The position numbers and the translations under genes are program-made. The notes beneath the pieces were generated by a model, which did no database searches, was not told the DNA's origin, and worked only from the letters and a program-made list of their open reading frames with translations. A DNA stretch of 64,000 nucleotides from Ignavibacteriales bacterium (GTDB lineage: Bacteria > Bacteroidota > Ignavibacteria > UBA10030): positions 186,001 through 250,000 of the forward strand of contig JAPLFQ010000020.1 in the NCBI GenBank assembly GCA_026390595.1, read 5' to 3'. This document shows, piece by piece, positions 24,055 through 51,458 of the stretch; the first letter of the stretch is position 1, and each line of letters begins with the position of its first letter.

Positions 24055-24097
24055 AACGGGGCTGTCCCATAAGTACTGGGTCAGCCCCGTTTTTTTG
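24055..24097 (+). terminator. Strong terminator after tRNA-Met
   Basis: AACGGGGCTG pairs perfectly with CAGCCCCGTT, with a smaller CCCA/TGGG stem inside the loop, then seven T. It starts 7 bases after the tRNA. Confidence 0.9.
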
Positions 24098-24189
24098 TGC
24101 CAATTAGAAACACGTGCACAGTCGAAGCCGGATGAGCCCGAAAGGAAGAACTTTTGTTTCCCTTAGACCATGCGACTCGCGTTTTCATC

Positions 24190-24747
24190 CTACGATTGCT
24201 TGTATTCCGTCAAGTCAATTATCGCGATGTGGCATTGCTGGTCTGGTTCGAATATGTTATCCAACTTTACACCTTCTAATTGGACATGGCGAACCACTTT
24301 GTCTTTTGTGAAGACTTTCATTTTGCAGGATTGTTTTACGGGAGAGGTGAAGACGGATTTGACAAAAGCATTAAAGACATCCCGCTCATCCAGCGGGACA
24401 TACGCAATAAAGTGCTTACCGACTAATTTACTTCGATCAACGCCGAACATTGTACTTGCAGATACATTGACCTCCTTCGTTACACCATCCACGCCCAGAA
24501 CGAAGTAAGGGATTGGTGAAAAATCAAAGAGGTTCACATATTTATTTCTCGATACCTCTAATTCTTGTTCCGCAATTCGAAGCTCCTGGTTCTGATGTTC
24601 CAGTTCGATTTGATTCACCTGGAGCAAATGTATCAGCTTCTCAACCTCTTCATTCTTTCCAACAGCCGGTTTTTTCGGCCTTCGTTGCCTTTGTACCTTC
24701 GCTGTTCTAGCGATCTTCGCTTTTGATTTATTTTTAGCTTGATTCAT
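24190..24747 (-). CDS. Stand-alone PAS domain protein with basic tail and coiled coil
   Basis: 185 residues from the ATG at 24747 (AAAGGTG upstream). Residues 1-30 are very basic. A coiled coil follows (EEVEKLIHLLQVNQIELEHQ, about 33-70), then a PAS domain (NLFDFSPIPYFVLGVDGV, ASTMFGVDRSKLVGKHF, to the PAC-like end CHIAIIDLTEYKQS). This is the usual N-terminal sensor of PAS histidine kinases, but no kinase domain follows. It lies 13 bases after the CheB-CheR-PAS gene and probably acts with it, perhaps supplying a missing module. GC is low compared with neighbours. Confidence 0.72.
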   Translation of the reverse strand: MNQAKNKSKAKIARTAKVQRQRRPKKPAVGKNEEVEKLIHLLQVNQIELEHQNQELRIAEQELEVSRNKYVNLFDFSPIPYFVLGVDGVTKEVNVSASTMFGVDRSKLVGKHFIAYVPLDERDVFNAFVKSVFTSPVKQSCKMKVFTKDKVVRHVQLEGVKLDNIFEPDQQCHIAIIDLTEYKQS

Positions 24748-24760
24748 TTTTTGCACCTTT

Positions 24761-27718: not shown

Positions 27719-28230
27719 AGATCCTCACAGATATGCTTAACGGCGCTTCCGAAAATCTGGTTTCTACGAATGAATCACCATAGAAGAAGCCGGAAATATT
27801 TCGCCGGACGGGATCCTACGACCTTGAGATTGAGTTCATCATATGCCAAACTAGTCATTTGATCTGCAACAAGCAATCGGAGGCGTACCCGAGATAGGGT
27901 GACCTAAACTACGTACTCGTGGTACACAAAACTGGAATCGGGACTTTCTTCCTAAATGGTAGCACTCTTTGCAGGGAATCATACTCACCAAATGGCTGGC
28001 GAGGCCAACTGGAACCGTTACTGACTCCGCCTGCCAAACACCGCTTGCAGATGCGCAACTGTTTTCGTAATTTCAAATCCAGAGTGTACTTGAGTTCTCG
28101 GTTTTGCTGAGAGCGGGGATTCCGGGTGTCATCCCGCCACAGACTTGACACCGGCCCCGCGGCAAAGAAGTCACATGAATTCTTGACCCTGGAAGATCGG
28201 GGTCAAGAATTCTTCTTATAAGGGGTTCGG
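27719..28230. other. Gene-free stretch with inverted repeats
   Basis: It separates the AT-rich chemotaxis-like genes from tilS. It holds a GTGTC/GACAC inverted repeat at 28122-28154 and the perfect 13-base inverted repeat at 28177-28212. Open frames here do not look like protein. Confidence 0.55.
28177..28212. repeat. Perfect 13-base inverted repeat upstream of tilS
   Basis: GAATTCTTGACCC and GGGTCAAGAATTC are separated by 10 bases. The right arm ends 18 bases before the GTG start of tilS. It may be an operator, an mRNA hairpin or a terminator of weak type (TTCTTCTTAT follows). No protein can be named. Confidence 0.75.
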
Positions 28231-33241: not shown

Positions 33242-34486
33242 TCACACACACGCTGCAATTACCGTAAAGACGCGTTTGTTCTTCAGCGCCTTCCGCACTC
33301 TCACCTGATTCGCCTTCATTTTCTCATGCACCCAGCGTATCCGCGAAAACCTCATCGGCGAGTACCGTTCCATATTTCTGGAATACGTCTCGCTGAACAG
33401 TCGCGGGCATCGGGCTATCGATTCCAGAATCAGGAACCGGCAACTCCGTCGCACCAGTTCTGTCAACGTATCGGCGTTACGGAAAACACGGGGACTGCCC
33501 AACGTGAGGACGACGTCCGTAAACGCATGAAGCCGATTCGCCGCCGCGTCAAGGGTCCCCATGGAGGCAGCGAGCGTGAAAAGAGTTTGGTGACCGTTTC
33601 TAAGATCCTCTTCCACATCCTGCAAATCGTCGATGAGCTGGAGGAACACACCGTAACCGAATGAGAACGCGGCATTTTCCAGAGAGAGATAACCCTTGGC
33701 GAGGTAAGCGTCCGCCAGAACAGACGTCCCTCCCTTCTCGATACTGATGTCCATCAGGTCCGATTCCGTCCACCGTTTCGACGATGAGTGTTGACGAAGG
33801 CTCTTCTCCTGGCCTGCATGAATTGCGAGCAGGCTCTCGAAGACATCCGGAAAGGACGATCGGGGGAATTCTGATTCTATCATCTCCACGAGATCCGATA
33901 TCTTCGCCTCGAGTCTCGAAGGGGCCGGAACGCTGTACCCTGAAAGCCGGAGTCTGAATCTTTTACTGAACTCCCGTTTCTCTTCTCCAGTGACCACCGG
34001 ATCATCAAGAAAGTTATCCGAATACGGATAGAGGAGGCTGTATGCTACTCCGGACGGAGTAACCCGCACCGGCAGGCCGAACCCGGCCTGCATACTGTTC
34101 AAGATCCACAAGTTGCGAAGCGCCTGGAAGAGGTCCTCGACCTGGAGGTCGGGATCAAATGAGTGCGCCCGCCGCGCAAATTCGTCACCCGCATCCGAGA
34201 ACTCCCCCAGCATCTCGTCTGTCTCCGCGCGGCGCCCGGGGTCCATCGATCGAACGACCATATTTCGCACCGATGACTTCATGCGCTGCAACTGAGCCAT
34301 CGCTTCTTCGGAGTTCACGTCGATATCCTTTTCAGCGAGGATTGACTCCTCCACCCTTGCTTCGGTCGCCTGCTGTTCTTCCTCGTTGTACTCCCTGCCA
34401 CACCACGGCAAAGCCATCGATGTGTTTTGCCACAATGAGGAACAATCCGACTTGAGAATCTGGAGATGTGCATCGAAAGAGATCAT
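33242..34486 (-). CDS. Class I isoprenoid-synthase-fold protein, unknown product
   Basis: 414 residues from the ATG at 34486 (an upstream TTG frame to 34642 is less natural). Mostly helical with two Asp-rich motifs at the spacing expected of class I terpenoid/prenyl synthases: SDNFLDD (about 156-162) and LIDDLQDVEED (about 284-294). The first is DNFLDD rather than DDxxD. The protein is longer than a standard prenyl diphosphate synthase and divergent from FPP/GGPP synthases and from squalene/phytoene synthases. It probably binds a prenyl diphosphate through Mg2+, but product and even activity are uncertain. It converges with the polyprenol-kinase-like gene at 33052 with no clear terminator between. 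Confidence 0.6.
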   Translation of the reverse strand: MISFDAHLQILKSDCSSLWQNTSMALPWCGREYNEEEQQATEARVEESILAEKDIDVNSEEAMAQLQRMKSSVRNMVVRSMDPGRRAETDEMLGEFSDAGDEFARRAHSFDPDLQVEDLFQALRNLWILNSMQAGFGLPVRVTPSGVAYSLLYPYSDNFLDDPVVTGEEKREFSKRFRLRLSGYSVPAPSRLEAKISDLVEMIESEFPRSSFPDVFESLLAIHAGQEKSLRQHSSSKRWTESDLMDISIEKGGTSVLADAYLAKGYLSLENAAFSFGYGVFLQLIDDLQDVEEDLRNGHQTLFTLAASMGTLDAAANRLHAFTDVVLTLGSPRVFRNADTLTELVRRSCRFLILESIARCPRLFSETYSRNMERYSPMRFSRIRWVHEKMKANQVRVRKALKNKRVFTVIAACV

Positions 34487-34671
34487 GCCGACTTGCGTGG
34501 TTGGTGCACTTGCAGCGAGTAATTCGGGTTCTTTCACGGTGAAGGGTTGTATCTTCTGTGAAAACAGGCGGCACGTTCGTGGTGCCTTCGGGTGTGTACG
34601 AGGGATCGAGTCAAAAGTTGCGGATGGCCGGGGGAAGAACAAATTCTCAATGGCGAAAGGTCAATCATCGG

Positions 34672-38752: not shown

Positions 38753-39106
38753 TTATGAGATTGCGTTCTGCAGGAGGCGAATCCCTGGAATTCCATTCAC
38801 AATAGTAATGGCAACGACGTCAAATCTGCATGGCTGATGCTCAATGTTGCGCTCGAACAAGTATCCTTCAGCCACCTTCTTCAATTGCTCTTCCTTGGAG
38901 GGCGTGACCGATTCCTCGGGCGGCCCGGACGCTTCGCTCTCGCGAGACTTCACCTCGACGAACACGAGGATTGTCCCATCCTGAGCGATGATATCGATCT
39001 CCCCCCGGTCATACCGGTAGTTGCGTTCGATGATCCGGTATCCCTGTTCCTCGAGGAACCGCGCCGCAAGATCTTCCCCCAATCGTCCCTTCTGGTGCTT
39101 GTTCAT
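38753..39106 (-). CDS. yraN: UPF0102 (YraN-like) predicted endonuclease-fold protein
   Basis: 117 residues. KGRLGEDLAARFLEEQGY, then ERNYRYDRGEIDIIAQDG and LVFVEVKSR, the complete UPF0102 signature with a restriction-endonuclease-like D-ExK core (Asp in EIDII, E.K in VEVKSR). Function is not established; a nuclease role is suspected for the family. It overlaps the rnhB stop codon by 4 bases (ATGA) and is very often next to rnhB in bacteria. The C-terminal part is less conserved. Confidence 0.92.
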   Translation of the reverse strand: MNKHQKGRLGEDLAARFLEEQGYRIIERNYRYDRGEIDIIAQDGTILVFVEVKSRESEASGPPEESVTPSKEEQLKKVAEGYLFERNIEHQPCRFDVVAITIVNGIPGIRLLQNAIS

Positions 39107-39771
39107 CGCACGGAGCGCCCTTCAGTGGAGAGCTCTTTGAGTTCCGGGATATGGAATGTCCGGCGGTGAATCGGGCAGAGTCCGTAGTGCCGAAGTGCTT
39201 CGACATGAATCCTGGTTCCATATCCCTTGTGACGATCGAATCCGTATTCAGGGTACTGGTCGTGGTAGTCTCGCATCAGGTTATCCCGCGTCACCTTCGC
39301 AACGATTGAGGATGCGGCGATCGTCACCGAGAGCGCATCGCCGTCGATCACGTTATGATATCGTAGCTCTTCGTGTTTGAAGCTGTTCCCGTCCGCAAGA
39401 ACGATCGCCGGCGGTAGTGTCAGGTTCTCGATCGCTTTTCGCATTGCCAGAATCGACGCCTGGTAAATGTTGATCCGATCGATTACTTCATGGCTCACGA
39501 TGCCGACGCCTACGGACAATGCCGCGTCGAAGATCCGATGGTAGAGCACTTCCCGCTGCCTGGCGCTCAGCTTTTTCGAATCGTTGACCCCATCGATGCA
39601 GAGCCCTTTCGGAAGGATGACAGCACCTGCGACCACAGGCCCCGCGAGCGGTCCACGCCCTGCCTCATCAACTCCGGCAATGTGTTCGAGCCCTTGAGCC
39701 CAATACGTCGCTTCCAACTCGAGCGTCGGGACTTGTTTCTTCTGCTTCGGCTTGGAGATCGTCACTTCCAT
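39103..39771 (-). CDS. rnhB: Ribonuclease HII
   Basis: 222 residues from the ATG at 39771. Cuts RNA-DNA hybrids 5' of single ribonucleotides. The signature GVDEAGRGPLAGPVVAGAV carries the first catalytic Asp-Glu; LADGNSFKHE and ASSIVAKVTRDNLM carry the remaining Asp and the conserved region, and YGFDRHKGYGTRIHVEAL follows. The N-terminus has an extra basic stretch of about 25 residues. The ATG is 2 bases after the end of the UbiA gene and the stop overlaps the UPF0102 gene, so it is tightly embedded in the run. Confidence 0.95.
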   Translation of the reverse strand: MEVTISKPKQKKQVPTLELEATYWAQGLEHIAGVDEAGRGPLAGPVVAGAVILPKGLCIDGVNDSKKLSARQREVLYHRIFDAALSVGVGIVSHEVIDRINIYQASILAMRKAIENLTLPPAIVLADGNSFKHEELRYHNVIDGDALSVTIAASSIVAKVTRDNLMRDYHDQYPEYGFDRHKGYGTRIHVEALRHYGLCPIHRRTFHIPELKELSTEGRSVR

Positions 39772-39773
39772 AT

Positions 39774-40613
39774 TCAGGAACCAAGAAACACGGCAAAGAT
39801 ACCGGCGACCATACACACTTTCAAGATAAGACTTAACCGCTTCAAATTCGAGAGCGTTGAATCATACCACATCGCAATAATCACATACGCGAGAGCGAGG
39901 TTCACAAAGAGAACAACGAGCAGATACCGCAGGTCGTACACTCCGGCAACAAATGGCACAAACGTCGTCAGGATGAGCACACCGATGGCAATCGACGCTC
40001 CAAGGAGCCCCGCCTCAGGACCATGCTTTACGGGGAGCGTCTCGGCTCCCACTGTTGCATCGCCATCGACATCCTCGACGTCTTTGAGAAGCTCCCGGGC
40101 AAGGTTGGCGAGGAATGCGAAGATCGCGGGATAGATGCCGAGATCAGGACGGCCCGCAACGGCCGCACCGAAGGGGAATGCGAGCGCTGTCATGAACGCC
40201 ACCGCGACATTCCCTGCCACAACAGTTCCTTTCAAACGCTGGCTGTAGAAATATAGCCCGCCAACCCAGACGACTGCAATGACGACTCCCCAGATTCCAA
40301 GCAGAAGGCTCAAGACGAGACCGAACGCAGATGTGGTGATCCAGAGTCTTCTCGCGTCGCCAAGTTTGAGCGCTCCCCTCGGCAGCGGGCGATCAGGACG
40401 GTTTATTTTGTCCGTCTTGATGTCAAAGTAATCGTTGATCGCATTTCCACCGCCGGCAATCGAGGACGCCGCGATGGAAGCAACAATGATCAGCAGCCAG
40501 TCCAAGCCGGACGGTTTGGCAAGGACGCCCGCAACCGCGACAGTCATAAAGACAATCGCAAGGTTGACAGGGCGCAACAGTTCGATGCGCGGGTCGAGAT
40601 TCTTAAAATTCAT
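39774..40613 (-). CDS. UbiA-family prenyltransferase, geranylgeranylglyceryl-phosphate geranylgeranyltransferase-like
   Basis: 279 residues with about eight membrane helices. The two Asp-rich motifs are NAINDYFDIKTDKINRPDRP (58-77) and RELLKDVEDVDGDATVGAET (173-192), which bind prenyl diphosphate and Mg2+. The pairing of GGGNAINDYFDI.TD.INRPDRPL with a DvEDvdGD motif is closest, as far as I can judge by eye, to archaeal-type (digeranylgeranyl) DGGGP synthases, which are also seen in Bacteroidota and Chlorobi genomes. UbiA members for quinone, chlorophyll or protoheme are alternatives. The start overlaps the stop of the Omp85 gene by 11 bases. Confidence 0.75.
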   Translation of the reverse strand: MNFKNLDPRIELLRPVNLAIVFMTVAVAGVLAKPSGLDWLLIIVASIAASSIAGGGNAINDYFDIKTDKINRPDRPLPRGALKLGDARRLWITTSAFGLVLSLLLGIWGVVIAVVWVGGLYFYSQRLKGTVVAGNVAVAFMTALAFPFGAAVAGRPDLGIYPAIFAFLANLARELLKDVEDVDGDATVGAETLPVKHGPEAGLLGASIAIGVLILTTFVPFVAGVYDLRYLLVVLFVNLALAYVIIAMWYDSTLSNLKRLSLILKVCMVAGIFAVFLGS

Positions 40614-42393
40614 TGATCAACCGTATATGGAGTTTTGCGGTACTGAATGTGTCCCCCTCACCGAAAGCGAGGCTGACGCCCATAAGTCCCAACGGAGTAT
40701 CGAGACGTATTCCTGCGCCGTATCCGATCTTGTTGGTTTCCTGTTGCACGAGACCTGCCTGCGCGCGATCAGGCATGAGAATGTAGCCGATGTCGATGAA
40801 CCCGAATGCGTAGGAGCGAGGTCCAGTCAGAAGCCGGTATTCCGCATTCGACCATGCGACACGGGAACCCAGAAACTGTCCCTCCCGGTACCCACGAAGC
40901 GTATTTGAACCTCCCAATCGGAACAGGTCGCTCTGCTCAACGGCCCCGCTGCTGAAGTTCCTTGCTGACAGACTCACCGAAAGCACCTGGTTCTGTACCG
41001 GCGAGATGTCGTACTCCAGATCAAACGCCAGCTTCTGAGTGGACGCATGATCACTCGACGACGACAGCGAGTTCTGCGTCTCTTTGACACCCGTCTGGTA
41101 CTCGGTGCGATACCTCAATCCACTCGAAGGCGTGACGGGATCGTTCCGTGAATCATACGAGACAGACACTCCGACGCTCGTCGTATGACTTTTACTTGCG
41201 ACAAGGACGCCAAAACCTTCCGTCGGCAGGACACGCTCACTTGAAAACACAACTCCAAGATTGAGTTCGTCGGTGGCCATGAGTTCACCAGAGAACCTGT
41301 ATTCGTTGCGGATGAAGGTCGAATCCTGTTTTCTCTGTGCAAATCCGGCTTCACCATTGAGGGGGAGCGATGCAATCCATGGCTCGCGATAGCGCAGTTC
41401 GATTTCCTGTGACGACTCCGTTTCCCGATACCATCGTGCCGTGAGCTTTCTCGCCGTTCCAAGAATGTTGCGGAACTGGACGTCAACCAACCCGGTGAGG
41501 TATCCGCCCGTGCCTGTACTACCCGAGGGAACATAACCGACGACTCCGTCGAACCGGTTCGGGTTTCCTTCGGTCACTTTCACCAGGAGTCCGACAGTCC
41601 CATCCTGGTTCACAAAGAGCTCCGGCATTGAGACACTGGAAAACAGCTGCATATGTTCGAGCCGCTGCTTGACGAGCATCGGGTGGCCTCCGCGCAACAC
41701 CTCCCCTTCAACCAGGCGGGCCTCCCGCGTGATGACGCTGGTTTTTGTGGTTGTGTTCCCCTCGATTCGAAGATCGCGAATCTTCGCCAATGCCCCTTCG
41801 GCGATGGCGAGAGTCAGAAAAGTCGCGACAGAGTCCTTCAGCTCCTCGAAGCGGATATCCCGGATCTCGATCTTCGCGAACGGAAACCCCGATTGTTCAT
41901 AGCTGTCAAGCAATCTGCTCACATCACGTTCGAGAATGGCCGGTACGAACTTTGTCCCTATCTGTGTTTCGATGAGGCGTTCGGCATCCACCTGTTCGAG
42001 CGATTTCAGCCCCTCCATCTTTACCGAAGCAACAAAGGCCCTCTTACCCTCATGCACCGAGATCACGGCAGTTACCGTCGAGCTGTCTGCCATCGGGATC
42101 AACCGTACCGAATCGACCGCTGCGAAGAGAAAACCCTCTGAAGAAAACCCGGCTGCGATGCGCGCTGAATCCGACGGTAAGAACGAGCCCCCTTCTTTCG
42201 TCTCCATCCAGGAACGGATTGTCGCGCTGGACACTCTTGAATTCCCTGTCACAACGATCGCGCTGACACGGCGTTCAGACTGGGCTGCGACCATGCATGG
42301 ACACAACACGAACGCGCAACACCATACGGCCAAATGGAAAAAGCCAGGCGAACTGCATGCCGCGCTGGCTTTTCGTGTCCGAAATCGCTGCAT
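40603..42393 (-). CDS. Omp85/TamA-like outer-membrane protein with three POTRA domains
   Basis: 596 residues from the ATG at 42393 (GTG 42417 is an alternative). Signal peptide to about residue 38. Three POTRA domains follow (about 40-115, 116-205 and 206-285; for instance AKIRDLRIEGNTTTKTSVI), then a beta-barrel of about 310 residues with the Omp85 hallmark LGGSNTLRGYREGQFLG and the closing GIRLDTPLGLMGVSLAFG. It ends with Phe, the usual C-terminal residue of outer-membrane barrels. With only three POTRA domains it is nearer TamA than BamA. The GWxTD gene lies 5 bases upstream and the UbiA gene overlaps its end. Confidence 0.85.
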   Translation of the reverse strand: MQRFRTRKASAACSSPGFFHLAVWCCAFVLCPCMVAAQSERRVSAIVVTGNSRVSSATIRSWMETKEGGSFLPSDSARIAAGFSSEGFLFAAVDSVRLIPMADSSTVTAVISVHEGKRAFVASVKMEGLKSLEQVDAERLIETQIGTKFVPAILERDVSRLLDSYEQSGFPFAKIEIRDIRFEELKDSVATFLTLAIAEGALAKIRDLRIEGNTTTKTSVITREARLVEGEVLRGGHPMLVKQRLEHMQLFSSVSMPELFVNQDGTVGLLVKVTEGNPNRFDGVVGYVPSGSTGTGGYLTGLVDVQFRNILGTARKLTARWYRETESSQEIELRYREPWIASLPLNGEAGFAQRKQDSTFIRNEYRFSGELMATDELNLGVVFSSERVLPTEGFGVLVASKSHTTSVGVSVSYDSRNDPVTPSSGLRYRTEYQTGVKETQNSLSSSSDHASTQKLAFDLEYDISPVQNQVLSVSLSARNFSSGAVEQSDLFRLGGSNTLRGYREGQFLGSRVAWSNAEYRLLTGPRSYAFGFIDIGYILMPDRAQAGLVQQETNKIGYGAGIRLDTPLGLMGVSLAFGEGDTFSTAKLHIRLINEF

Positions 42394-42398
42394 CAGGA

Positions 42399-43712
42399 TC
42401 AACGCATCCTTCCCCACAGATCGGTTGTGGGATAACGGAGCCGGTAGTCTCCGAATCCCGTCTCGTCAACAAAAATGAATTGGCGATTCAATTGGTAGTA
42501 GTACCATATTTCATACGGCTTGTTATCGACATCGAACGGGTGACGTTCGATGTTGTCAGGGCTTCCAAACCGGATGAACACCATCCCCATGTCCGTCCGC
42601 CATCCTTCAAGGTAGTGTGTGAAGGACTGATTCGCGTACTGGACCCGGCCGTAGTATTCCTCCATAAGCTCGTTCCGCTGGGTTTGAGGATCGGGGTCAC
42701 GTTTGGACCAGAACTCGAGAAACCTTTTACGTTTGTCTTCTTCGGTCGTAGCGGAGCGGACATAATCCAGCTCTGCTTCACGGGCGATATAGATCAGCTG
42801 ATCGATCGCTTTTTGCAGGTCGATAATTGCGACCGGAAGATCCGCCGAGCGCACAGTAAACGTTCTGGAAGTCGAGGACTTGACTGTGACTTGACCGGTG
42901 CCCGAGCCGACCTTGCCTGCCGCAACAACGGAAAGGTAGTACGTCCCCATGCGCAGCCCGGTGCTGTCAAGTTTCAGAAAAATCTGCGTCTTGGTCCCGA
43001 CGGTGGCCTCTGACTGAGTGTAACTGGCCACTTCGTTTTTCCTCGAATCGTAGATCTTCGATTCAAACACCAGCGAGTCGAACGCATGCCGCGTGTAGGC
43101 TTCGAAGAACACGAAGAACCCTTCGGCGAGATTGCTGACGCTTCCCGGGATGTTCGGGACAATCGTCCGCTTCTCTCCATCTGTCGACAACCGGTTCACG
43201 AGCATGATATCACTCAGAGAGAGAGAATCCTTGGTGAAATCAGTGATGAGAAGCGACTTCTTCAGCTGAGAAGACTTGCGCGATTCCTGATCCCGGAGCT
43301 GGATCGTCATTTGATAATTTCCCGGTTCAACGTCCACGGTCCGGTGTGTCAGACTGTGGAGCTTACTTTGCGTGGTCTGGGAAAACTCAGCGACGGGGAC
43401 ATCGACAGTCCAGGTTTGCTCGTGCGTCAGAGTTTTGGATGGACTAAACAGAGAAAGCGTAATCTCGTAGCGGCCGATGTATTGATCCCCTTCTTTGACG
43501 AACCGGATCTCCTCATGCGGAACTTGCACATAGACATCGAGACGCGATTTCTGAGGTTGATCCGACGCATAGGCAATGGCATCGGCGTAGAACGCGGGTC
43601 CGGCTTCCACGAGCCCCCGCCGCATCTCCGTTTGAGCGTGCCCGGTCGTGACGAGCGACATCGCCATTCCAAATAACCCCAAGATGATGAACAGACCTCT
43701 GGTGATGCGCAT
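42399..43712 (-). CDS. GWxTD domain protein
   Basis: 437 residues from the ATG at 43712 (AGAAGGA upstream). Signal peptide 1-26. The C-terminal part contains EGWRTDMGMVFIRFGSPDNI near residue 375, the defining GWxTD motif followed by its conserved continuation, then YEIWYYYQLNRQFIFVDETG. The middle part is beta-rich with several repeated strands. GWxTD proteins are found mainly in the FCB group and have no established role. The 5-base gap to the Omp85-family gene suggests a periplasmic or outer-membrane assembly function. Confidence 0.85.
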   Translation of the reverse strand: MRITRGLFIILGLFGMAMSLVTTGHAQTEMRRGLVEAGPAFYADAIAYASDQPQKSRLDVYVQVPHEEIRFVKEGDQYIGRYEITLSLFSPSKTLTHEQTWTVDVPVAEFSQTTQSKLHSLTHRTVDVEPGNYQMTIQLRDQESRKSSQLKKSLLITDFTKDSLSLSDIMLVNRLSTDGEKRTIVPNIPGSVSNLAEGFFVFFEAYTRHAFDSLVFESKIYDSRKNEVASYTQSEATVGTKTQIFLKLDSTGLRMGTYYLSVVAAGKVGSGTGQVTVKSSTSRTFTVRSADLPVAIIDLQKAIDQLIYIAREAELDYVRSATTEEDKRKRFLEFWSKRDPDPQTQRNELMEEYYGRVQYANQSFTHYLEGWRTDMGMVFIRFGSPDNIERHPFDVDNKPYEIWYYYQLNRQFIFVDETGFGDYRLRYPTTDLWGRMR

Positions 43713-43716
43713 GGTC

Positions 43717-45045
43717 CTATATCCTTCTATCAATGGTGGTTCCGGACACCTCTGCATAGAGATCGTACTCCGTGCAGCGCGTCACATGGGCGTCCACAAA
43801 ACTCCCGATTGGCAGGGCCGCCGAGCTCTTTACGTATACTTCCTGATCAATTTCAGGTGCGTCCCACTCCGTCCGTCCTACGAAGAACTCATCTTCAACT
43901 CTGTCGATCAGGACCCTGACATCCGACCCAACGATCGACTCATTGTGTTCTTCTGAAATCCGCTGCTGCAATTCCATGATTCTGGCCCGTCGCTCTTCTT
44001 TAAGCTCTGTCGGAATGGGATCACCCAGGTCAAACGCCGTGGTCCCCTCTTCCTGAGAGTACGTAAAAACTCCGAGCCGATGGAATCTCACTTCATTTAC
44101 AAATTCGCACAGCTGCTCAAAATCGTCGTCGGTTTCGTTCGGATATCCGACTATCAGCGTTGTCCGCAGGCCTATGCCCGGGACGGCGGTCTTGATCTCA
44201 GAGAGGAGATCTCTCAGAGACCGGTTCGTGACGCCTCTTCGCATGGACTTCAGGACCTCGTCCGCAACGTGCTGAATAGGCATGTCAAGATAGCGGCAGA
44301 TGTTCGGGTTGTCGCGGATGACGCTCAGAATGCTCTTGGGAAATTTCGCGGGATAGGCGTACATCAGCCTGATCCATTCGATTCCCTCAACACCTGCGAG
44401 CTCGCTCAGCAGTGCGTCGAGCTGACGATCCTTCTGCAGGTCAAGACCATAGTACGTCGTGTCCTGACCGATCAGTATGAGTTCTTTTACGCCGCGGGAA
44501 GCGAGATGATGCGCTTCGGTGACGAGTTGTCCGAGCGGCCGTGAAACATGCAGGCCTCGCATCAACGGAATTGCGCAGAACGAGCAGGGATTGTCGCATC
44601 CCTCGGAGATTTTTAGATACGCGTAATGGGAGGGTGTTGTAAGCTGGCGTTCACCGAGAAGCTCCTCCCTGTATTCAACCCCGAGCTCACGAACAATTTG
44701 AGCGATGTGGTGGGAGCCAAAATAGGCGTCAACGCTGGGGATTTCAGCCGCAAGATCCTTCGCAAAACGCTCGGAAAGACAGCCCATCACCACGACCTTT
44801 TTCAGCTTCCCCTGGTTCTTCCTCTCGACCGCCTCGAGAATCGCGTCGATGGATTCCTGCTTCGCTGCCTCGATGAAGCCGCATGTATTGATCACAGCAA
44901 TGTCGGCGTCGTCCACGTCATCGACAATGTTTGCCTTCCCTCCGGTAAGCTGCCCAAGCAGCACTTCGCTGTCTACGAGGTTCTTCGAACATCCCAGAGT
45001 CACGATGCTGATTTTCGGCTTCAGGTTATTTTTGAAAGTGGTCAC
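43717..45045 (-). CDS. rimO: Ribosomal protein uS12 methylthiotransferase
   Basis: 442 residues from a GTG that overlaps the cdsA stop by 4 bases. It adds a methylthio group to an Asp of uS12. The N-terminal iron-sulfur cluster ligands are Cys19 (TLGCSKN), Cys55 (NTCGFIE) and Cys89 (MGCLSER); the radical-SAM ligands are Cys150, Cys154 and Cys157 (CDNPCSFCAIP). GLRTTLIVGYPNETDDDF and a C-terminal TRAM domain (VLIDRVEDEFFVGRTEWDAPEID) complete the family pattern; the last is the RimO form rather than MiaB. It lies between cdsA and the GWxTD gene, 4 bases from the latter. Confidence 0.95.
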   Translation of the reverse strand: MTTFKNNLKPKISIVTLGCSKNLVDSEVLLGQLTGGKANIVDDVDDADIAVINTCGFIEAAKQESIDAILEAVERKNQGKLKKVVVMGCLSERFAKDLAAEIPSVDAYFGSHHIAQIVRELGVEYREELLGERQLTTPSHYAYLKISEGCDNPCSFCAIPLMRGLHVSRPLGQLVTEAHHLASRGVKELILIGQDTTYYGLDLQKDRQLDALLSELAGVEGIEWIRLMYAYPAKFPKSILSVIRDNPNICRYLDMPIQHVADEVLKSMRRGVTNRSLRDLLSEIKTAVPGIGLRTTLIVGYPNETDDDFEQLCEFVNEVRFHRLGVFTYSQEEGTTAFDLGDPIPTELKEERRARIMELQQRISEEHNESIVGSDVRVLIDRVEDEFFVGRTEWDAPEIDQEVYVKSSAALPIGSFVDAHVTRCTEYDLYAEVSGTTIDRRI

Positions 45046-46007
45046 GAGAGCACGACAAAATCAATGTAAAGATACACAATGGGGGCTACAAACACCAGGC
45101 TGTCGAATCGATCGTACACTCCGCCGTGGCCGGGGATGAGCGCAGACGAGTCCTTCACGTTCGCGTCGCGCTTGAATCTCGACTCAACAAGATCCCCAAG
45201 TTGTCCGAAGATCCCGACAATGACGCCGAGGATCAAAGCATCCTGAAGTCGGAGATAGTCGAGAACGAGAGCGCGTGCTGCGAGCATCGCAAGCACAGCG
45301 CCGACAAACCCGAAGACAGCGCCTTCCCATGATTTCTTCGGACTCACACGTTCGAACAGCCGGTGACGCCCGAACGTCAACCCGCCAAAATACGCTGCCG
45401 TGTCGCAAATCCAGATGCTCGCAAGGAGTGACACGATCGTGTAGCCGCCCCAGCGGGAGATCGTGGCAAGCTCCAGGTCGCCGGCCATTGCGACGCTGAA
45501 AAATTTGGAAACAGGAAAGCCGAACGGGAACAATTCACGAATCTCGATGAGCGTGCCGAAAAACAACGAGACCACCATCACTCCGAATACCGTCGCCCCC
45601 GCGTTCATCATTGGAGATCCCTTCTGGCGGAACAACTCAATCAAAAGAACAACCAGAAGGAAGACAAGAAGTGTAACCAGAAGGAATTGCAGCTGCGAGA
45701 ACATGGAAAGAGGGAATCCCCGGGAAGCAAAGAAACTGAATACCTCCACCTGCAGCCGCTCGTAGATGAATGCCGCGTTCACCAGGAATCCGCCCGCTAT
45801 GCCCACTGCTTTTTGTGGAAAGGCACCTTTCGTCTCGGCGAGGACGTAAAACTCATGCAACGATACGGCGGAGATCACGGCCACGAGGGCAAAAAAGAAA
45901 TAACTTCCGGCCATCGCAGCCCAGACAATGACGGGGATTGCCACCAGGGCCACGGCAAGGCGCGTCGGGAGTGAACTGAAACGTGATGATTTCACGGGTG
46001 ACTCCAT
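45042..46007 (-). CDS. cdsA: Phosphatidate cytidylyltransferase
   Basis: 321 residues with about eight membrane segments. Makes CDP-diacylglycerol from CTP and phosphatidate for all phospholipids. The signature SALIPGHGGVYDRFDSLVF lies near residue 285 and KKSWEGAVFGFVGAV near 225, both diagnostic. In archaea the homologue makes CDP-archaeol, but this protein has the bacterial pattern. It overlaps rimO by 4 bases and follows the CPBP protease gene by 76 bases, in the same minus-strand run as UbiA and GGR. Confidence 0.93.
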   Translation of the reverse strand: MESPVKSSRFSSLPTRLAVALVAIPVIVWAAMAGSYFFFALVAVISAVSLHEFYVLAETKGAFPQKAVGIAGGFLVNAAFIYERLQVEVFSFFASRGFPLSMFSQLQFLLVTLLVFLLVVLLIELFRQKGSPMMNAGATVFGVMVVSLFFGTLIEIRELFPFGFPVSKFFSVAMAGDLELATISRWGGYTIVSLLASIWICDTAAYFGGLTFGRHRLFERVSPKKSWEGAVFGFVGAVLAMLAARALVLDYLRLQDALILGVIVGIFGQLGDLVESRFKRDANVKDSSALIPGHGGVYDRFDSLVFVAPIVYLYIDFVVLS

Positions 46008-46083
46008 ACCAAGAAGAACAGTTCTAGATCAAAGAGAGTTTCTGATGGCACCACCATTCACCACAGGGACATCGCACGACGGC

Positions 46084-47031
46084 CTACCTATGGGCGTCAT
46101 CCGCCGCTCTTACGTCAGCCGTCACACGCAGATAGGAGGTGAATGAAACAACGAAAAGCATGGAAAACAGGAAGAGCTGCGCAAGGATCGCTGCAGGGTT
46201 GATCTCCACTCCTTTGGCGGCGCCGAGAACCATCTTGTCATCCATCTGGAAAAACGAGACGACCACGGCGAGTCCGTTGTTCAGGAAATGAAGGCTCATC
46301 GCAATTACGATGCTTCTCGAACGCATCCGGAGAATCCCAAAAAAACAACCCAGAATAATCAAGGGCACAAGCGCGAACGGGTTAAAATGGAATAAACCGA
46401 AGATAACGCCCGTCCAGATCGCGGCATTCATGGCTTTCATTCTCCGTTCAAAGCTGCTTTGCACCAGTCCGCGAAACAGAAGCTCTTCCACGATTGCGGG
46501 TGTAATGCTTACGACAAGAACCACGAGCATGAGTTCCCACGCACTGTTGGCCGAGACGAGTGTGCGGAACATCTCTTCCACGAGTTGCTTCGCTGGTTCG
46601 ACAATCTCTTTCAGCCCTTGAGGGAGGGGGATCCGGTCCTGGAAATACATATATATTTGCATAACCTCCTGAAGAAAGAGAAGGCTAAGAACCGCAAAGA
46701 CCGACTCACCCGCTTTCGGCATGCGCCATGGGAACACACCGGCGAATCGATGGTCCAGCAACCGCGCGAACATGAGGGTTGGAACCAGTATGAACAGAAT
46801 CTGCCCGGACATCGTGAAGATTCTGTGCATCATCACATTGTCGGGAGTCACCTTGCTGCCCACCAACAACAGGGTGAGGAATCCGCCGATGAGCTGATAC
46901 AACACGAAGACGATCAGGAGGCATACGAAGGCGAACAAGACTGGCGAGATGCCGTACCTCTCAACAAAAGGCGCCGTCGGAGGCGGCACGGGTGCGGGCA
47001 TCGATGGTTCGGTCAGATGAGTCAAGGACAT
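46084..47031 (-). CDS. CPBP family intramembrane metalloprotease (CAAX protease-like)
   Basis: 315 residues, about eight membrane helices. The active-site motifs are EELLFRG (182-188), FGLFHF (about 211-216) and HFLNNG (about 253-258), the usual CPBP/Rce1 set with Glu-Glu and two His as metal ligands. Members cleave prenylated or other membrane peptides, or act in bacterial immunity and processing; no substrate is known here. The N-terminus has a Pro-rich cytosolic part. The ATG directly abuts the stop codon of the deoxyhypusine-synthase-like gene, so translation is probably coupled. Confidence 0.85.
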   Translation of the reverse strand: MSLTHLTEPSMPAPVPPPTAPFVERYGISPVLFAFVCLLIVFVLYQLIGGFLTLLLVGSKVTPDNVMMHRIFTMSGQILFILVPTLMFARLLDHRFAGVFPWRMPKAGESVFAVLSLLFLQEVMQIYMYFQDRIPLPQGLKEIVEPAKQLVEEMFRTLVSANSAWELMLVVLVVSITPAIVEELLFRGLVQSSFERRMKAMNAAIWTGVIFGLFHFNPFALVPLIILGCFFGILRMRSRSIVIAMSLHFLNNGLAVVVSFFQMDDKMVLGAAKGVEINPAAILAQLFLFSMLFVVSFTSYLRVTADVRAADDAHR

Positions 47032-47991
47032 CTATCCTTTGGTCACGTGCAGCTTGATCATCGATGCGAGCAATGGAATCATGATTTCGTGATGCCCGGT
47101 GAAAGAATATCCTCTTCCAGACGTCCGCGTCGGCCGTTCCACGACGTTTACCTGAGGGCGGTATTGTCTGATCATATCAAAATTCGCCGTTGAGAACCCC
47201 TGCGCTTTGTATCCAAGATTGCGGGCGACCGTGAGCGCTTTCAGAAATACCTCCGGGAGAATCACTGCAGACCCCACGTTCAGAACAACTCCGCCCCCTT
47301 TGAGTTCCTTGACGGAGTTTGCGAAGATCTTGAAATCTCGGAAACTCATTTCGCCTGTGGCCGCTCCGTCCATCGTTGGCTGCTGGTGTATGATGTCGGT
47401 TCCGATTGCGGCATGGACCGTGACGGGGACATTCTGCTCGTAGCACGCCGCAAGAATGCTGACAGAAAGGTGCGGAGCTTTCGAAGCGATGAGTTTCTTT
47501 GCAAGCGTCTCGGCATACCCTTCGCTGGTCTCGGCAAACCCGCGTACGAGCGCGCGGTTGATGAATTCTCCCGTCTCCTTCGACATCCCGAATTTCCCGT
47601 CCATGATGTTGACTGCCACATCTTCAGAAGTCTGTCCCCACATCGCGGTTTCGACGTCATGGATAGCCGAGGCACTGTTCATAGCCACGTGGGTGATCAC
47701 TCCCCGCCTGACCAGATCGATGATCAGAGGAGACAAGCCCACCTTGATGACGTGGGCGCCCATCATCAGGATCACCGGTTTCTTGCGGCGACGGGAGCGT
47801 TCAATGTCGCTCACAAGCTCACGCAGCTCGTCCGCCATAAGGATGCGCGGCAGTGAATCCACAAATTCGGCGACGCGTGCCTTCCGGGGATCGATCACGC
47901 GGGCAAAGTCTTTCGGCGAGACCTTGCTTTTCCGCTTGGCGATGGAAATGGTCTTGATACCGGAGAGCTTGATCTGTTTGTATTTTGACAT
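47032..47991 (-). CDS. Deoxyhypusine synthase-like protein, function unknown
   Basis: 319 residues, no signal or membrane segment. Its Rossmann-like order matches deoxyhypusine synthase superfamily proteins by eye: VILMMGAHVIKVGLSPLIID, then THVAMNSASAIHDVE, then NVPVTVHAAIGTDIIHQ and GGVVLNVGSAVILPEVFLKA near the end. True deoxyhypusine synthase has a catalytic Lys just before the 'IPVf.Pa' element; here that part reads CYEQNVPVTVHAA, without the Lys. Bacteria lack hypusine, so another reaction (perhaps on a polyamine or nucleotide) is likely. I am moderately sure of the superfamily and not of a function. It sits 5 bases after the DUF3108 gene. Confidence 0.55.
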   Translation of the reverse strand: MSKYKQIKLSGIKTISIAKRKSKVSPKDFARVIDPRKARVAEFVDSLPRILMADELRELVSDIERSRRRKKPVILMMGAHVIKVGLSPLIIDLVRRGVITHVAMNSASAIHDVETAMWGQTSEDVAVNIMDGKFGMSKETGEFINRALVRGFAETSEGYAETLAKKLIASKAPHLSVSILAACYEQNVPVTVHAAIGTDIIHQQPTMDGAATGEMSFRDFKIFANSVKELKGGGVVLNVGSAVILPEVFLKALTVARNLGYKAQGFSTANFDMIRQYRPQVNVVERPTRTSGRGYSFTGHHEIMIPLLASMIKLHVTKG

Positions 47992-47996
47992 GGCAG

Positions 47997-48845
47997 TTAC
48001 CGTACCTTTGCCCCTATGGGGCCGTTGATGCCGGAGTATTCTCTCAACTCCGCATCGATGGATCCAACGACAACCTTTGTGCTTACTTTGACCGGAATCT
48101 TCCGTTCATCGTCAGTCAGCCAGATGAGGACCCTCCCCTCGCTCTTAAACAGCCCTCCCTCTTTCATGAGCGGCTCGACAATAATGCAGTTGAACGTTCC
48201 CGCGTCCACCTCGATCCTCTGCCGGCCCAGGAATTTCACCTCGAGCGAATACGTTGTGTCTCTGAAAAAATTCTGCAGCATCATCTTCTCGCCAATGCGG
48301 GACTTCGAGTAGTCGAGCGTCCGGATAAAATAGAACGCCGACACCGCGTCATGGACGTACGGCGGGATTGGGTACTGCTTGTCACCAGAATACGCGATGT
48401 TTTTCACCTGATCGAACCAGGCGCTGAAATCCCGGCTGTAAGATCCCTCCCGCACCCTTTGCGTGAAGTGCCAAGGGAAAATCCCGAGCACATCAAGATA
48501 CGTCTCGTAGCGGTCATCCACCTTATAGATCCAGGAGAACGTCTTCGTCGAATTCACGGTGAAGAGAACCTGATACACCGACCGACCGAACATCGAATCG
48601 GATTTCGGGATGCTCATGACTGCTTCCCCGGCGGTTATGAAACTGTAACCCACATCGAAGACCAGGCGCTCTCCTTCGGCGAACGCTCCATGCGGAACCG
48701 TACGGAGCATCGTGTTCGACCCGTAGAGACTCCCCCGGGACAAGAGCGCCCTGCCGAGTGAGTCTTGCGACACAACTTCAGCGGAAATCGCGACCGTCAG
48801 AATAATCGCCGTCAATGCAATGCGTCCGCACATCGTGTTCATCAT
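47997..48845 (-). CDS. DUF3108 domain protein, exported
   Basis: 282 residues with a signal peptide at about 1-25. The body follows DUF3108: EGERLVFDVGYSFITAGEAV, VNSTKTFSWIYKVDDRYETY, then YFIRTLDYSK and VDAGTFNCIIVEPLMKEGGLF, ending with IWLTDDERKIPVKVSTKVVVGSI. DUF3108 proteins are periplasmic beta-rich proteins without known activity. The ATG overlaps the stop of the heptosyltransferase-like gene by 1 base (TAATG), pointing to coupled translation and an envelope role. Confidence 0.85.
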   Translation of the reverse strand: MMNTMCGRIALTAIILTVAISAEVVSQDSLGRALLSRGSLYGSNTMLRTVPHGAFAEGERLVFDVGYSFITAGEAVMSIPKSDSMFGRSVYQVLFTVNSTKTFSWIYKVDDRYETYLDVLGIFPWHFTQRVREGSYSRDFSAWFDQVKNIAYSGDKQYPIPPYVHDAVSAFYFIRTLDYSKSRIGEKMMLQNFFRDTTYSLEVKFLGRQRIEVDAGTFNCIIVEPLMKEGGLFKSEGRVLIWLTDDERKIPVKVSTKVVVGSIDAELREYSGINGPIGAKVR

Positions 48846-49888
48846 TATGATCGTTCTTTCCGGGAAATGAGGTTCCGGGCTGCATTCAGCACTTCCCCAA
48901 CCTTGATCTGGTCCATGCAGTCATTTCCCTGGCATGGCCCCCCTTTACAGCGCGGGCACACGACATTATCAGCCATGAAGACAGCCTTCCTGTCACTCAG
49001 CGGCCCCCAGCGGCGGGGGCTGCATGCGAGAATAGGGGGATAGAAGGCGATCACCGGCGTTCCGGTCGCCGCGGCAATGTGCAGCGGCCCCGTGGAATTT
49101 GAAACGAAAAGCTCCGCATTACCAAGAAACGCCGCCAGGACCTTGAGCGGCATTCGGCCCACGCTCCCCACAGCAGCTCCCCCAGCACGCGTCAATACCT
49201 GCCTCACCAGTTCCTCCTCTGCTGCAATCCCTGTGACAACGACTCTGGCACCATCGGCAGCCAGACCCTTTGCGAGGTCGCCGAAGTTCTGCGCACTCCA
49301 ATCCCGTGCTGATCCTCCGCTACCCGGGTGGATCACCACGAACCTCTCCGTCTGCCCAATGCCGAGTCTCTTGAGTTCTTCGGCGGCGGCTTCATGCGCC
49401 CCTTTCGCGAGGGGGAGTATGATTCGGGGAACGCCTGGAGTGCGAATCCCAATTTCCTGAAGCAACGAAAGGTTGTATTCCGCCTCATGCCTCTCAGCGG
49501 TTTTGCGGTGCTCAAAAACTCTCTTGTTGAATAGGAACGAATACCATCGATATCCCGACCCCACGCGTACCGGCACACCGGCAAGCGCTGTCAGAAGTGC
49601 AATACGGAGAGTCGGGTGGGAAACAATGGCAAGATCAAATCGCTGAGCCCGAAGCTCTGCAAGCAACGCAAGAAACCCCTTCTGCTCCCCCGATGTGTCG
49701 CAGGAAATGATGTGATCGAGCCCGGCAAATCCTTCAACCAACGCGCTGGTGTAAGACCGAAGCAGCATCGAGATTCTGATCCGCGGCATGCTCTCACGCA
49801 ACACCGGGACCATCGGGAGTGTCAGAACGACATCACCGATCCGATCGGTCCGAACGATGAGAACATTCTCAAATGTGCGTTCTTTCAC
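48845..49888 (-). CDS. Glycosyltransferase family 9 (ADP-heptose:LPS heptosyltransferase-like)
   Basis: 347 residues from a GTG. Adds heptose to the lipopolysaccharide core at the cytoplasmic face of the inner membrane. The N-terminal IVRTDRIGDVVLTLPMVPVL and the C-terminal ELFVSNSTGPLHIAAATGTP are GT9 signatures, with VIHPGSGGSARDW in the nucleotide-sugar part. Four cysteines near the end (CPRCKGGPC..C) are common in the family's tail. Its gene is 116 bases downstream of the GGR gene and overlaps the DUF3108 gene. Confidence 0.88.
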   Translation of the reverse strand: MKERTFENVLIVRTDRIGDVVLTLPMVPVLRESMPRIRISMLLRSYTSALVEGFAGLDHIISCDTSGEQKGFLALLAELRAQRFDLAIVSHPTLRIALLTALAGVPVRVGSGYRWYSFLFNKRVFEHRKTAERHEAEYNLSLLQEIGIRTPGVPRIILPLAKGAHEAAAEELKRLGIGQTERFVVIHPGSGGSARDWSAQNFGDLAKGLAADGARVVVTGIAAEEELVRQVLTRAGGAAVGSVGRMPLKVLAAFLGNAELFVSNSTGPLHIAAATGTPVIAFYPPILACSPRRWGPLSDRKAVFMADNVVCPRCKGGPCQGNDCMDQIKVGEVLNAARNLISRKERS

Positions 49889-50004
49889 TGCTCCGCATCA
49901 ATGGTTATTGATCAATATACTGCACGGTGCTCAGAGTATCAAGGCAGGGAGAGAGTGGAAGACTCCGAGTAAGGGTTAGATCGATGTTTCCTTCATAACA
50001 GCCG

Positions 50005-51171
50005 TCAGGAAATGAACACTTTCGCGACATCCAGGAGAATCGAAGGCTGGTTCCAGAGCGCTGTCCGGAAAATGCCCCCGACTGTTCGTTTCTCTTCCGG
50101 CAGCTTCAGTCCATCGATGCAGATCTTGTTCAAGGTCTCGTCGGAGAATGAGGAGATCGCTTCCTTGATTCTGTAGAACACTTCGTGACGCCAGCCAAGC
50201 CGTTTGCTCCAACGCTTCTGATACTCATCAAGATGCGCCATATCGTTCTTCGCCACGGCTTCAGCGATGATCTGACCGGCGATCATGCCCCCGATCATCC
50301 CGCTGATGATCCCCCCACCGCTCGTCGGATTGACCTGGTGGGCCGCATCTCCCACGAGGAGCACAGATCCCTTCACGATGTCGTCACACGTTTTTGCACA
50401 CGGGACACCTCCCGCGATCCGGGTGAGAATCGCTGCGTTCGGATACTTCTTCCCGACAAATTCTTCCAGGTATCGCACTGCCGACTTTTCTTTCGCCAAC
50501 TCGACGCTGATGCCGATGCCGACGTTTGCACTGTCTTTCCCTTTTGGAAAGACCCAGAGATATCCGCCGGGGGCAACGTTATCACCAAAGTAGAATTCGA
50601 GGATTCCCTGTTCCACCTGGATGCCTGAAAGCGTGAACTGAGCACAGCTCTCCATGTCGTGGATGTGACATGTTGTATCGATCCCGCCCCATTTGCCGAC
50701 CCGACTCTCCACACCGTCGGCCCCAACAACCACCTTCGATCGGATCTCGACTTTCTTGTCCTTGATGATCGCGCGCACACCGACCACCCGGCCGTCTTCT
50801 TTCAGAAGATCGTACGCATACGCCTTCGTGACGACCTCCGCTCCTTCACGGACTGCAAGCTTCGCAAGCTCGTAGTCGAAGATCCGCCGTTCAAGAACGT
50901 ATGCAACGCCGTCGAGCCGCGGCACGATCGAGTTGCCGTCCGGGGAGATGATTCTGAATTTCGTGACCGTCGCGGCAATCCAACGCTGGTCAGGTTCGAT
51001 AAACTGAACGACCCCTTCATGGCTGACCGCTTCTCCGCACCGGACAGGATACCCGACGTCCCGGTCTTTCTCCAGGACAAGGACAGAGGCTCCTCCGGCG
51101 GCAGCGAACCGGGCGGCCGTTGATCCGGCGGGTCCCGCTCCTACGATAATGACGTCATACGCATCGTTCAT
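50005..51171 (-). CDS. Geranylgeranyl reductase family flavoprotein (archaeal GGR-like)
   Basis: 388 residues. FAD-dependent reductase of isoprenoid double bonds. The FAD-binding GxGxxG is at 11-16 (VGAGPAGSTAA). PVRCGEAVSHEG (42-53) corresponds to the Cys motif of archaeal GGRs, YLWVFPKG (204-211) to their YxWxFPxG motif, and LLVGDAAHQVNPTSGGGI (about 272-289) to the second FAD motif. Substrates of the family include archaeal ether lipids, menaquinone tails and chlorophyll side chains; the two motifs named above favour the lipid type. A 2[4Fe-4S] ferredoxin gene lies 14 bases upstream and is the probable electron donor. See the UbiA gene at 39774. Confidence 0.83.
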   Translation of the reverse strand: MNDAYDVIIVGAGPAGSTAARFAAAGGASVLVLEKDRDVGYPVRCGEAVSHEGVVQFIEPDQRWIAATVTKFRIISPDGNSIVPRLDGVAYVLERRIFDYELAKLAVREGAEVVTKAYAYDLLKEDGRVVGVRAIIKDKKVEIRSKVVVGADGVESRVGKWGGIDTTCHIHDMESCAQFTLSGIQVEQGILEFYFGDNVAPGGYLWVFPKGKDSANVGIGISVELAKEKSAVRYLEEFVGKKYPNAAILTRIAGGVPCAKTCDDIVKGSVLLVGDAAHQVNPTSGGGIISGMIGGMIAGQIIAEAVAKNDMAHLDEYQKRWSKRLGWRHEVFYRIKEAISSFSDETLNKICIDGLKLPEEKRTVGGIFRTALWNQPSILLDVAKVFIS

Positions 51172-51185
51172 CGGTCTCTTGATCT

Positions 51186-51458
51186 CTAGAATGAGGGGGG
51201 ATGTTCCTGCGGCAGCGACATCTCTTTCGGCAGATGGTCGATGCCTTCACGATGGAATTCAATCACTTCCCACGGACACGCCCAAACGCACTTGCGGCAG
51301 TTCGTGCAGCGCTCGTCGATGATCCGTATCTCGGATTCAAGGAGTTCGATGGCGTCCTCGGGACACACACCGACGCAGCAACCGCAGAAATCGCATTTCC
51401 CGGGGACCAGGTAGATCATCAGTGGCGTCGTGCGCGGCAATCGAACCTCTTCAATCAC
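51186..51458 (-). CDS. 2[4Fe-4S] ferredoxin, likely partner of the geranylgeranyl reductase
   Basis: 90 residues. Two complete Cx2Cx2Cx3C clusters are visible: CDFCGCCVGVCP (about 22-33) and CTNCRKCVWACP (about 51-62), each ending in CP, as in bacterial-type ferredoxins that carry electrons at low potential. N- and C-terminal extensions are short and plain. In Methanosarcina, full geranylgeranyl reductase activity was reported to need a ferredoxin encoded beside it; the same order and strand here, with a 14-base gap, suggest the same partnership. It lies 65 bases downstream of dnaG. Confidence 0.92.
   Translation of the reverse strand: MIEEVRLPRTTPLMIYLVPGKCDFCGCCVGVCPEDAIELLESEIRIIDERCTNCRKCVWACPWEVIEFHREGIDHLPKEMSLPQEHPPSF

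Follow-up and report, generated by a model that had tools for sequence, protein, structure and literature searches.

Archaeal-type isoprenoid lipid genes with a ferredoxin-paired geranylgeranyl reductase in an Ignavibacteriales genome, and a probable selenocysteine variant of the reductase in Poribacteria

The closest known systems are found in bacteria of the Fibrobacteres-Chlorobi-Bacteroidetes (FCB) group and in methanogenic archaea. Geranylgeranylglyceryl phosphate synthase (GGGPS) and digeranylgeranylglyceryl phosphate synthase (DGGGPS) were tabulated in Ignavibacteria and other FCB groups in 2019 (PMC6431249), and their use in FCB bacteria lacking sn-glycerol-1-phosphate (G1P) dehydrogenase was called unclear; the same study, by Coleman et al., lists orthologs of this dehydrogenase for Cloacimonetes. 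Geranylgeranyl reductase (GGR) was noted in Cloacimonetes in 2020 by Villanueva et al. (PMC7852524), who describe the co-localisation of GGGPS and DGGGPS in bacteria as seemingly restricted to that group. The GGR of Methanosarcina acetivorans and its ferredoxin are the subject of Isobe et al. 2014, as cited in PMC9385802, PMC7852524 and PMC6309074, and the GGR-ferredoxin synteny is reported to be largely conserved in selected Euryarchaeota (PMC9385802). A catalytic cysteine, YxWxFP and GGG are the motifs of archaeal GGRs (PMC6309074), and the equivalent cysteine is reported to be essential for catalysis in the Sulfolobus acidocaldarius enzyme and to be a redox modulator (PMC10821996, PMC6309074).

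Here we analyze a stretch of 64,000 nucleotides (the window) from an Ignavibacteriales bacterium (assembly GCA_026390595.1, contig JAPLFQ010000020.1, positions 186,001 to 250,000). To judge from sequence comparison, it probably contributes three genes, for DGGGPS, GGR and a ferredoxin, to an archaeal-type pathway for isoprenoid ether lipids that exists beside a presumed bacterial one. Presence, family, co-occurrence, synteny and pairing of the genes were computed directly. An earlier note, made from the letters of the window, had reported four genes with their motifs on one strand, the last two separated by 14 bases, and all of this is present:

39774-40613, minus strand, UbiA prenyltransferase, predicted to be a probable DGGGPS; 279 amino acids (aa), motifs NDYFDIKTD and DVEDVDGD
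45042-46007, minus strand, CdsA, bacterial-type phosphatidate cytidylyltransferase; PF01148, E 1.4e-53
50005-51171, minus strand, archaeal-type GGR, FAD enzyme with catalytic Cys45; 388 aa, motifs PVRC, YLWVFPKG and GGG
51186-51458, minus strand, 2[4Fe-4S] ferredoxin that may serve the GGR as electron donor; Fer4 families, CxxCxxCxxxC motif present twice

The Pfam matches (UbiA PF01040, E 1.9e-37; CTP_transf_1, 1.4e-53; GGR_cat, 1.1e-26; Fer4, 5.2e-12) are far above chance. The 14 bases lie between the end of the ferredoxin gene and the start of the GGR gene, and an internal ATG may be the true start of the ferredoxin.

Reductase, ferredoxin and prenyltransferase

The window GGR scores above the cut-off of TIGR02032 (230 vs 158.8 bits). 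Its best profile is that of the Thermoplasmatales digeranylgeranylglycerophospholipid reductase (260 bits, below the profile's own cut-off of 780), followed by BchP-ChlP, ChlP and MenJ at 143, 83 and 59 bits. In the GGR tree, which omits loci L108, L115 (partial) and L130-L175, the window GGR belongs to a clade of 16 rows from its class (100/100), which lies within a mostly archaeal clade (95/91) together with Methanosarcinales and Thermoplasma GGRs. BchP-type rows are found elsewhere, and the approximately unbiased (AU) test rejects a tree in which six of these group with the class (p 0.0005). The comparison with MenJ and ChlP proposed in the earlier note is decided in favor of archaeal GGR, for these two enzymes by profile only. 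Residues C45, Y204, W206, F208, P209 and G285-G287 are invariant in an eight-row alignment that includes Thermoplasma acidophilum GGR (3oz2), which is also the first structural match of a model built from 22 rows (predicted local distance difference test, pLDDT, 89; TM score 0.92; the model alignment leaves out L052 and L054, among others). Identity is 38-47% to near-full-length archaeal GGRs that are paired with a ferredoxin, and 64% over 95 residues to the GGR locus of 'Bacteroidetes bacterium BP9.bin49'.

The pairing with a ferredoxin gene was examined at 16 loci of the class, nine close named loci (L101-L108 and L115; at least 38% identity) and 34 more distant control loci, which leaves out 46 of the 75 GGR loci among the matches listed. 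An open reading frame (ORF) for a two-motif ferredoxin lies upstream on the same strand at all 16 class loci, within 170 bases at 14 of them and at 602 and 907 bases at the other two. Such an ORF is also found upstream at eight of the nine close named loci among the matches listed, six of the eight being archaeal (Methanolobus, Methanosarcinales, Methanolliviera, Methanoculleus, Methanosarcinaceae and Thermoplasmatota, besides Poribacteria and Bacteroidetes; the locus without it is from Edwardsbacteria). It was found at none of the 34 distant GGR-like loci among the matches listed; under a looser rule, other iron-sulfur ORFs occur at two of these (L114, 245 aa; L129, 110 aa and downstream).

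For the UbiA protein, the profile PRK12884 gives 202 bits, the archaeal geranylgeranylglyceryl phosphate geranylgeranyltransferase profile PRK12882 190 bits, and the chlorophyll synthase profile ChlG 72 bits. Three distinct sequences are matched in the PDB, namely the Methanocaldococcus jannaschii DGGGPS 6m31 (E 7.5e-34) and two chlorophyll synthases (5.6e-9). The two Asp-rich motifs are shared with 6m31, with N60, D61, D64, D68, R173, E174, K177, D178, D181, G184 and D185 invariant in 13 rows. In a 57-row tree (without L027, which is partial, own-genome duplicates, L007 and L198-L203) the UbiA protein falls with archaeal DGGGPS in a group of 47 rows (87/82), from which three chlorophyll-synthase rows are separate (100/100). 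In a 50-row tree, from which seven further long branches were dropped and which was rooted on the chlorophyll synthases, the corresponding group has 43 rows (97/88), again with a chlorophyll-synthase branch of 100/100. The branch order among archaeal and bacterial DGGGPS is not settled by either tree. Profile rank, PDB match, trees and the co-occurrence described below make DGGGPS the probable identity of the window UbiA.

Co-occurrence, the proposed pathway and its alternatives

GGGPS, UbiA and GGR were searched for in 148 genomes of the phylum, 36 of them in the window's class and 112 outside it. At the cut-offs used, GGGPS and UbiA are both present in 17 class genomes and both absent from 19, and neither occurs alone. 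GGR of the window type is found in 16 of the 17 and in none of the 19. Fisher's test gives p 1e-10 for GGGPS with UbiA and 2e-9 for GGR with GGGPS. At the level of genera, the genes are present in 15 and absent from 13, and one family (f4) includes both states. The GGR scores are at least 434 bits within the class, whereas the best GGR-like match in the 112 other genomes reaches 132 bits.

The GGGPS proposed as a search target in the earlier note is indeed encoded in the genome (95.67% complete, with 4.77 Mb in 36 contigs), outside the window on the same contig (C20:16839-17543), behind a gene named alaS by eye. It matches PF01884 (138.6 bits) and the NCBIfam equivalog 'phosphoglycerol geranylgeranyltransferase' TIGR01769 (201.4 bits vs the cut-off of 161.55), and its best PDB match is the geranylgeranylglyceryl phosphate synthase 4jej. 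There are two polyprenyl synthases, which reach 314 and 228 bits with their best profile, archaeal short-chain IdsA (below its cut-off of 468); the next-best profile is geranylgeranyl diphosphate (GGPP) synthase (286) for the first and octaprenyl synthase (213) for the second. Three further UbiA proteins encoded in the genome score above the cut-offs for heme O synthase, a UbiA-like polyprenyltransferase of the quinone type, and decaprenyl-phosphate phosphoribosyltransferase, and thus these three roles look filled.

From these assignments we infer the substrates, the order of the steps including saturation, the chain length, the stereochemistry and any place of the product in the membrane. GGPP would be made by a GGPP synthase encoded elsewhere in the genome and joined with glycerol phosphate by the GGGPS, and a second geranylgeranyl chain would be added by the window UbiA. 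A polar lipid would then be completed by CdsA together with bacterial enzymes for the head group; to judge from the cited literature, CdsA could also make CDP-archaeol. The chains would be saturated by the window GGR, through FAD and Cys45 and with reduction by the ferredoxin encoded upstream, giving an archaeol-type lipid.

Several observations weigh against this pathway. The class genome G066 has GGGPS and UbiA but lacks this GGR, and the Fisher values ignore the relatedness of the genomes. Outside the class, GGGPS (E<=1e-25) is present in 41 of the 112 genomes, of which only 19 have a UbiA match at 1e-20 and 22 have none, while four further genomes have a UbiA match without GGGPS. The GGGPS and UbiA genes of the window's genome are about 210 kb apart. 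A search of this genome for G1P dehydrogenase with PF13685, another check named in the earlier note, failed to reveal the enzyme, the two matches being AroB (366 bits) and an iron alcohol dehydrogenase. The UbiA protein does not reach the equivalog cut-offs for DGGGPS (202 of 269 bits for PRK12884, 190 of 296 for PRK12882), although such cut-offs are a property of the models and not of the enzyme, and the poribacterial UbiA protein clustered with GGGPS also scores under them. Finally, the AU test does not reject a grouping of the order's five UbiA rows with the three chlorophyll-synthase rows (p 0.096, and 0.26 for the 50-row set), a hypothesis that also covers branching of the order beside the root of the DGGGPS group. 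The expected placement of UbiA with archaeal DGGGPS is therefore seen in the trees but is not enforced by the test, and the identity of UbiA rests more on profile scores and co-occurrence. As a separate candidate, the top match for G1P dehydrogenase in a 61-genome class sample (L213) was rejected, since it scores as a glycerol dehydrogenase; only this top match was checked.

The cut-offs and the AU result are what could be said for the window UbiA being another prenyltransferase, chlorophyll-synthase-like or other, with a merely coincidental link to GGGPS. We consider this very improbable, as the ChlG profile gives only 72 bits, UbiA is separated from chlorophyll synthases by a 100/100 branch in both trees, and all 17 class genomes with GGGPS also have UbiA, which is absent from the 19 genomes without GGGPS. 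It is also unlikely, if somewhat less so, that the isoprenoid saturated by the GGR-ferredoxin pair is a different one, for example menaquinone or a polyprenol, and that GGGPS and UbiA have a purpose of their own. In vitro, GGRs show promiscuity (PMC9385802), archaeal GGR paralogs have been proposed to act on quinones (PMC10821996), and a quinone-type UbiA is present in the genome. However, the GGR follows the combination of GGGPS and UbiA through the class (16 of 17 genomes vs 0 of 19), it scores 59 bits with the MenJ profile but 260 with that of the archaeal lipid reductase, and in the phylum Poribacteria it is clustered with DGGGPS and GGGPS. A menaquinone or chlorophyll role is disfavored on the same grounds (co-occurrence with GGGPS in the class, and the MenJ and ChlG scores). 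The earlier note had left a choice between ether lipids and the saturation of another isoprenoid such as menaquinone; the data support this pair of options, with the strict co-occurrence with GGGPS in the class favoring the ether lipid.

Harder to dismiss, though still doubtful on balance, is the possibility that GGGPS and UbiA build their ether lipids from sn-glycerol-3-phosphate, or act in reverse in the breakdown of archaeal lipids, so that no true archaeal-type G1P membrane lipid is formed. Neither EgsA nor AraM was found in the genome by PF13685, the GGGPS of Villanueva et al. was also active with sn-glycerol-3-phosphate (PMC7852524), and a catabolic option was raised by Coleman et al. 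(PMC6431249). On the other hand, a dedicated GGR-ferredoxin pair that is kept with GGGPS and UbiA suits the building of a saturated lipid better than its breakdown, and Escherichia coli made G1P-type lipids without egsA or araM in work cited by Villanueva et al. (PMC7852524).

A poribacterial gene cluster and an in-frame TGA

In Candidatus Poribacteria (JASMLX010000028.1, G150:C210; L221:7457-10664) a segment of about 3.2 kb carries the genes for UbiA, ferredoxin, GGR and GGGPS in succession, all on one strand. A GGR match (E<=1e-30) is present in 25 of 84 genomes of this phylum, and in nine of these 25 all four genes are found at the locus (flanks <=1.5 kb). No report of a DGGGPS-ferredoxin-GGR-GGGPS cluster in Poribacteria was found in the accessible parts of the open-licence literature, including PMC11868695. 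An ORF ahead of the cluster (L221:6384-7412) is UbiA-like by eye.

The codon of the PVRC cysteine was read in 21 of the 26 poribacterial GGR match rows, the rest being partial or not examined. It is TGT or TGC in seven of these genes and TGA in 14:

L231, L232 and L234-L245 (14 loci), example L103:3120-3122, GGR genes with an in-frame TGA at the catalytic PVRC cysteine

One TGA-type gene (G285) has an additional in-frame TAG elsewhere. A SECIS-like hairpin starting 13 bases past the TGA can form with six or seven of seven pairs in all 14 genes, vs one to three pairs in the seven Cys genes. When the stretch was folded alone, the hairpin formed in 12 of 14, L240 and L244 preferring another pairing. 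Over 13 distinct rows, 96.7% of the cells are paired, 12 cells carry a change on both sides, and covariation scores 0.478; none of 500 shuffles reached any of these three values, and slid controls gave lower ones, although related rows can beat shuffles without a real structure. For the numbers of double-change pairs (three) and of pair types (nine), however, 259 and 136 of 500 shuffles did as well. The TGA rows form one clade (100/99), corresponding to a single change on the tree.

A tRNA for selenocysteine (tRNA-Sec) scores at least 70 bits in 13 of the 14 TGA genomes, and 44.8 bits, below the cut-off of 47, in G150; ARAGORN reports tRNA-SeC with anticodon tca in all 13 loci fetched. In G240, the sole genome checked, the tRNA gene lies beside selB and selA, both above cut-offs. 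A tRNA-Sec match above the cut-off is present in 74 of the 84 Poribacteria genomes, and thus permits the reading of TGA as selenocysteine but does not single out the TGA genomes. GGR is not named in the table of an inventory from 2026, which covers 119 families and subfamilies of prokaryotic selenoproteins and has some entries without a function, and among the titles and abstract beginnings of the open-licence literature no report of a GGR or poribacterial selenoprotein with selenocysteine was found. The TGA-type GGR of Poribacteria is likely a new selenoprotein family.

Gene neighborhood and comparison with known systems

The GGR and UbiA genes of the window belong to a longer run of genes:

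38753-51458, minus strand, conserved run ferredoxin-GGR-GT9-DUF3108-GSU2086-CPBP-cdsA-rimO-GWxTD-Omp85-UbiA-rnhB-yraN; gene order as in relatives, a context that is partly non-lipid

Between GGR and UbiA it includes a glycosyltransferase 9, a DUF3108 protein, a GSU2086-family protein, a CPBP protease, cdsA, rimO (named by eye), a GWxTD protein and an Omp85 protein. Three related genomes, one from the same family and two from the same order, show this arrangement, with GSU2086 not found in one of these. In a fourth relative the ferredoxin-GGR pair is beside dnaG and the rest of the run is on another contig, and in two genomes of one more distant genus the pair adjoins a divergent UbiA gene. A dedicated lipid operon was considered for the window and ruled out, the order being kept in relatives and most of the genes having no clear lipid role.

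The earlier note had described a set of archaeal-type lipid genes, and this description is retained for UbiA, GGR and the ferredoxin pairing but not for cdsA, which looks like the usual bacterial gene type (95 bits with PRK11624, cut-off 385, vs 19 bits with the archaeal CarS-type PRK04032). Its polyprenol-kinase-like protein at 32339 has a CTP-transferase-family match, which is below the cut-off (E 0.0015; 18.9 vs 24 bits). Its class I isoprenoid-synthase fold for the 466-aa ORF at 33242-34642 was not recovered: this protein has no NCBIfam and no meaningful Pfam match and no PDB sequence match up to E 5, and its helical single-sequence model (pLDDT 37) is too poor for use.

Several other genes of the window were noted. 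The GSU2086-family protein (47032-47991, 409 bits) precedes cdsA in the run in three of the four relatives compared and has a weak likeness to deoxyhypusine synthase (20.5 bits, below the cut-off). A CheB-CheR-PAS fusion protein (24761-27718) lies in the most A+T-rich part of the window (24001-28000, 44% GC), directly followed by an ORF for a PAS fragment, with a tRNA-Met nearby. Type IX secretion sorting domains were found above the cut-off in a FlgD-Ig protein (10257-12035) and slightly below the cut-offs in a subtilase (18543-21323), which fits kinship with Bacteroidota/Chlorobi.

Taken together, the genes leave an about even chance that members of the window's class and of Poribacteria produce membrane lipids of the saturated archaeol type by means of a GGR driven by ferredoxin, which would give natural mixed membranes without a known G1P dehydrogenase, and that the GGR of one clade of Poribacteria is a selenoenzyme in which selenocysteine replaces the catalytic cysteine. 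Mixed archaeal and bacterial membranes had already been proposed for some bacteria, in the FCB group in 2019-2020, and the window's genes agree with such proposals. A saturated lipid product is suggested because the GGR with its adjoining ferredoxin gene comes and goes with GGGPS and UbiA in the class. A stable mixed membrane in a living bacterium would bear on the lipid divide between archaea and bacteria, and GGR, ferredoxin, GGGPS and UbiA form a small set of genes that can be expressed and tested. If true, the poribacterial variant would be a natural substitution at the residue proposed as the redox modulator of GGR.

Compared with the systems known, the analysis adds the ferredoxin pairing, the tight co-occurrence within a class, the four-gene cluster of Poribacteria and the GGR variant that probably contains selenocysteine. 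With Candidatus Cloacimonetes and other FCB bacteria the window's genome shares GGGPS, DGGGPS and a euryarchaeal-type GGR in a bacterial host (PMC7852524, PMC6431249). In the Cloacimonetes metagenome-assembled genomes of Villanueva et al., G1P dehydrogenase was likewise not found, so that this enzyme does not strictly define such a pathway, and a bacterial CdsA was proposed to act in place of CarS (PMC7852524). The differences are that GGGPS and DGGGPS are far apart here, that tight co-occurrence is seen in one class, and that GGR forms a gene pair with ferredoxin, of which no bacterial description was found in the accessible parts of PMC7852524 and PMC6431249. The BchP/ChlP and MenJ reductases belong to the same FAD superfamily, but their profiles score far below that of the archaeal lipid reductase and the BchP-type rows are a separate clade. 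With M. acetivorans the window shares a small ferredoxin gene beside GGR, and its GGR groups with those of Methanosarcinales; however, the host is bacterial, and the ferredoxin gene is upstream of GGR here, whereas in M. acetivorans it is downstream (PMC9385802).

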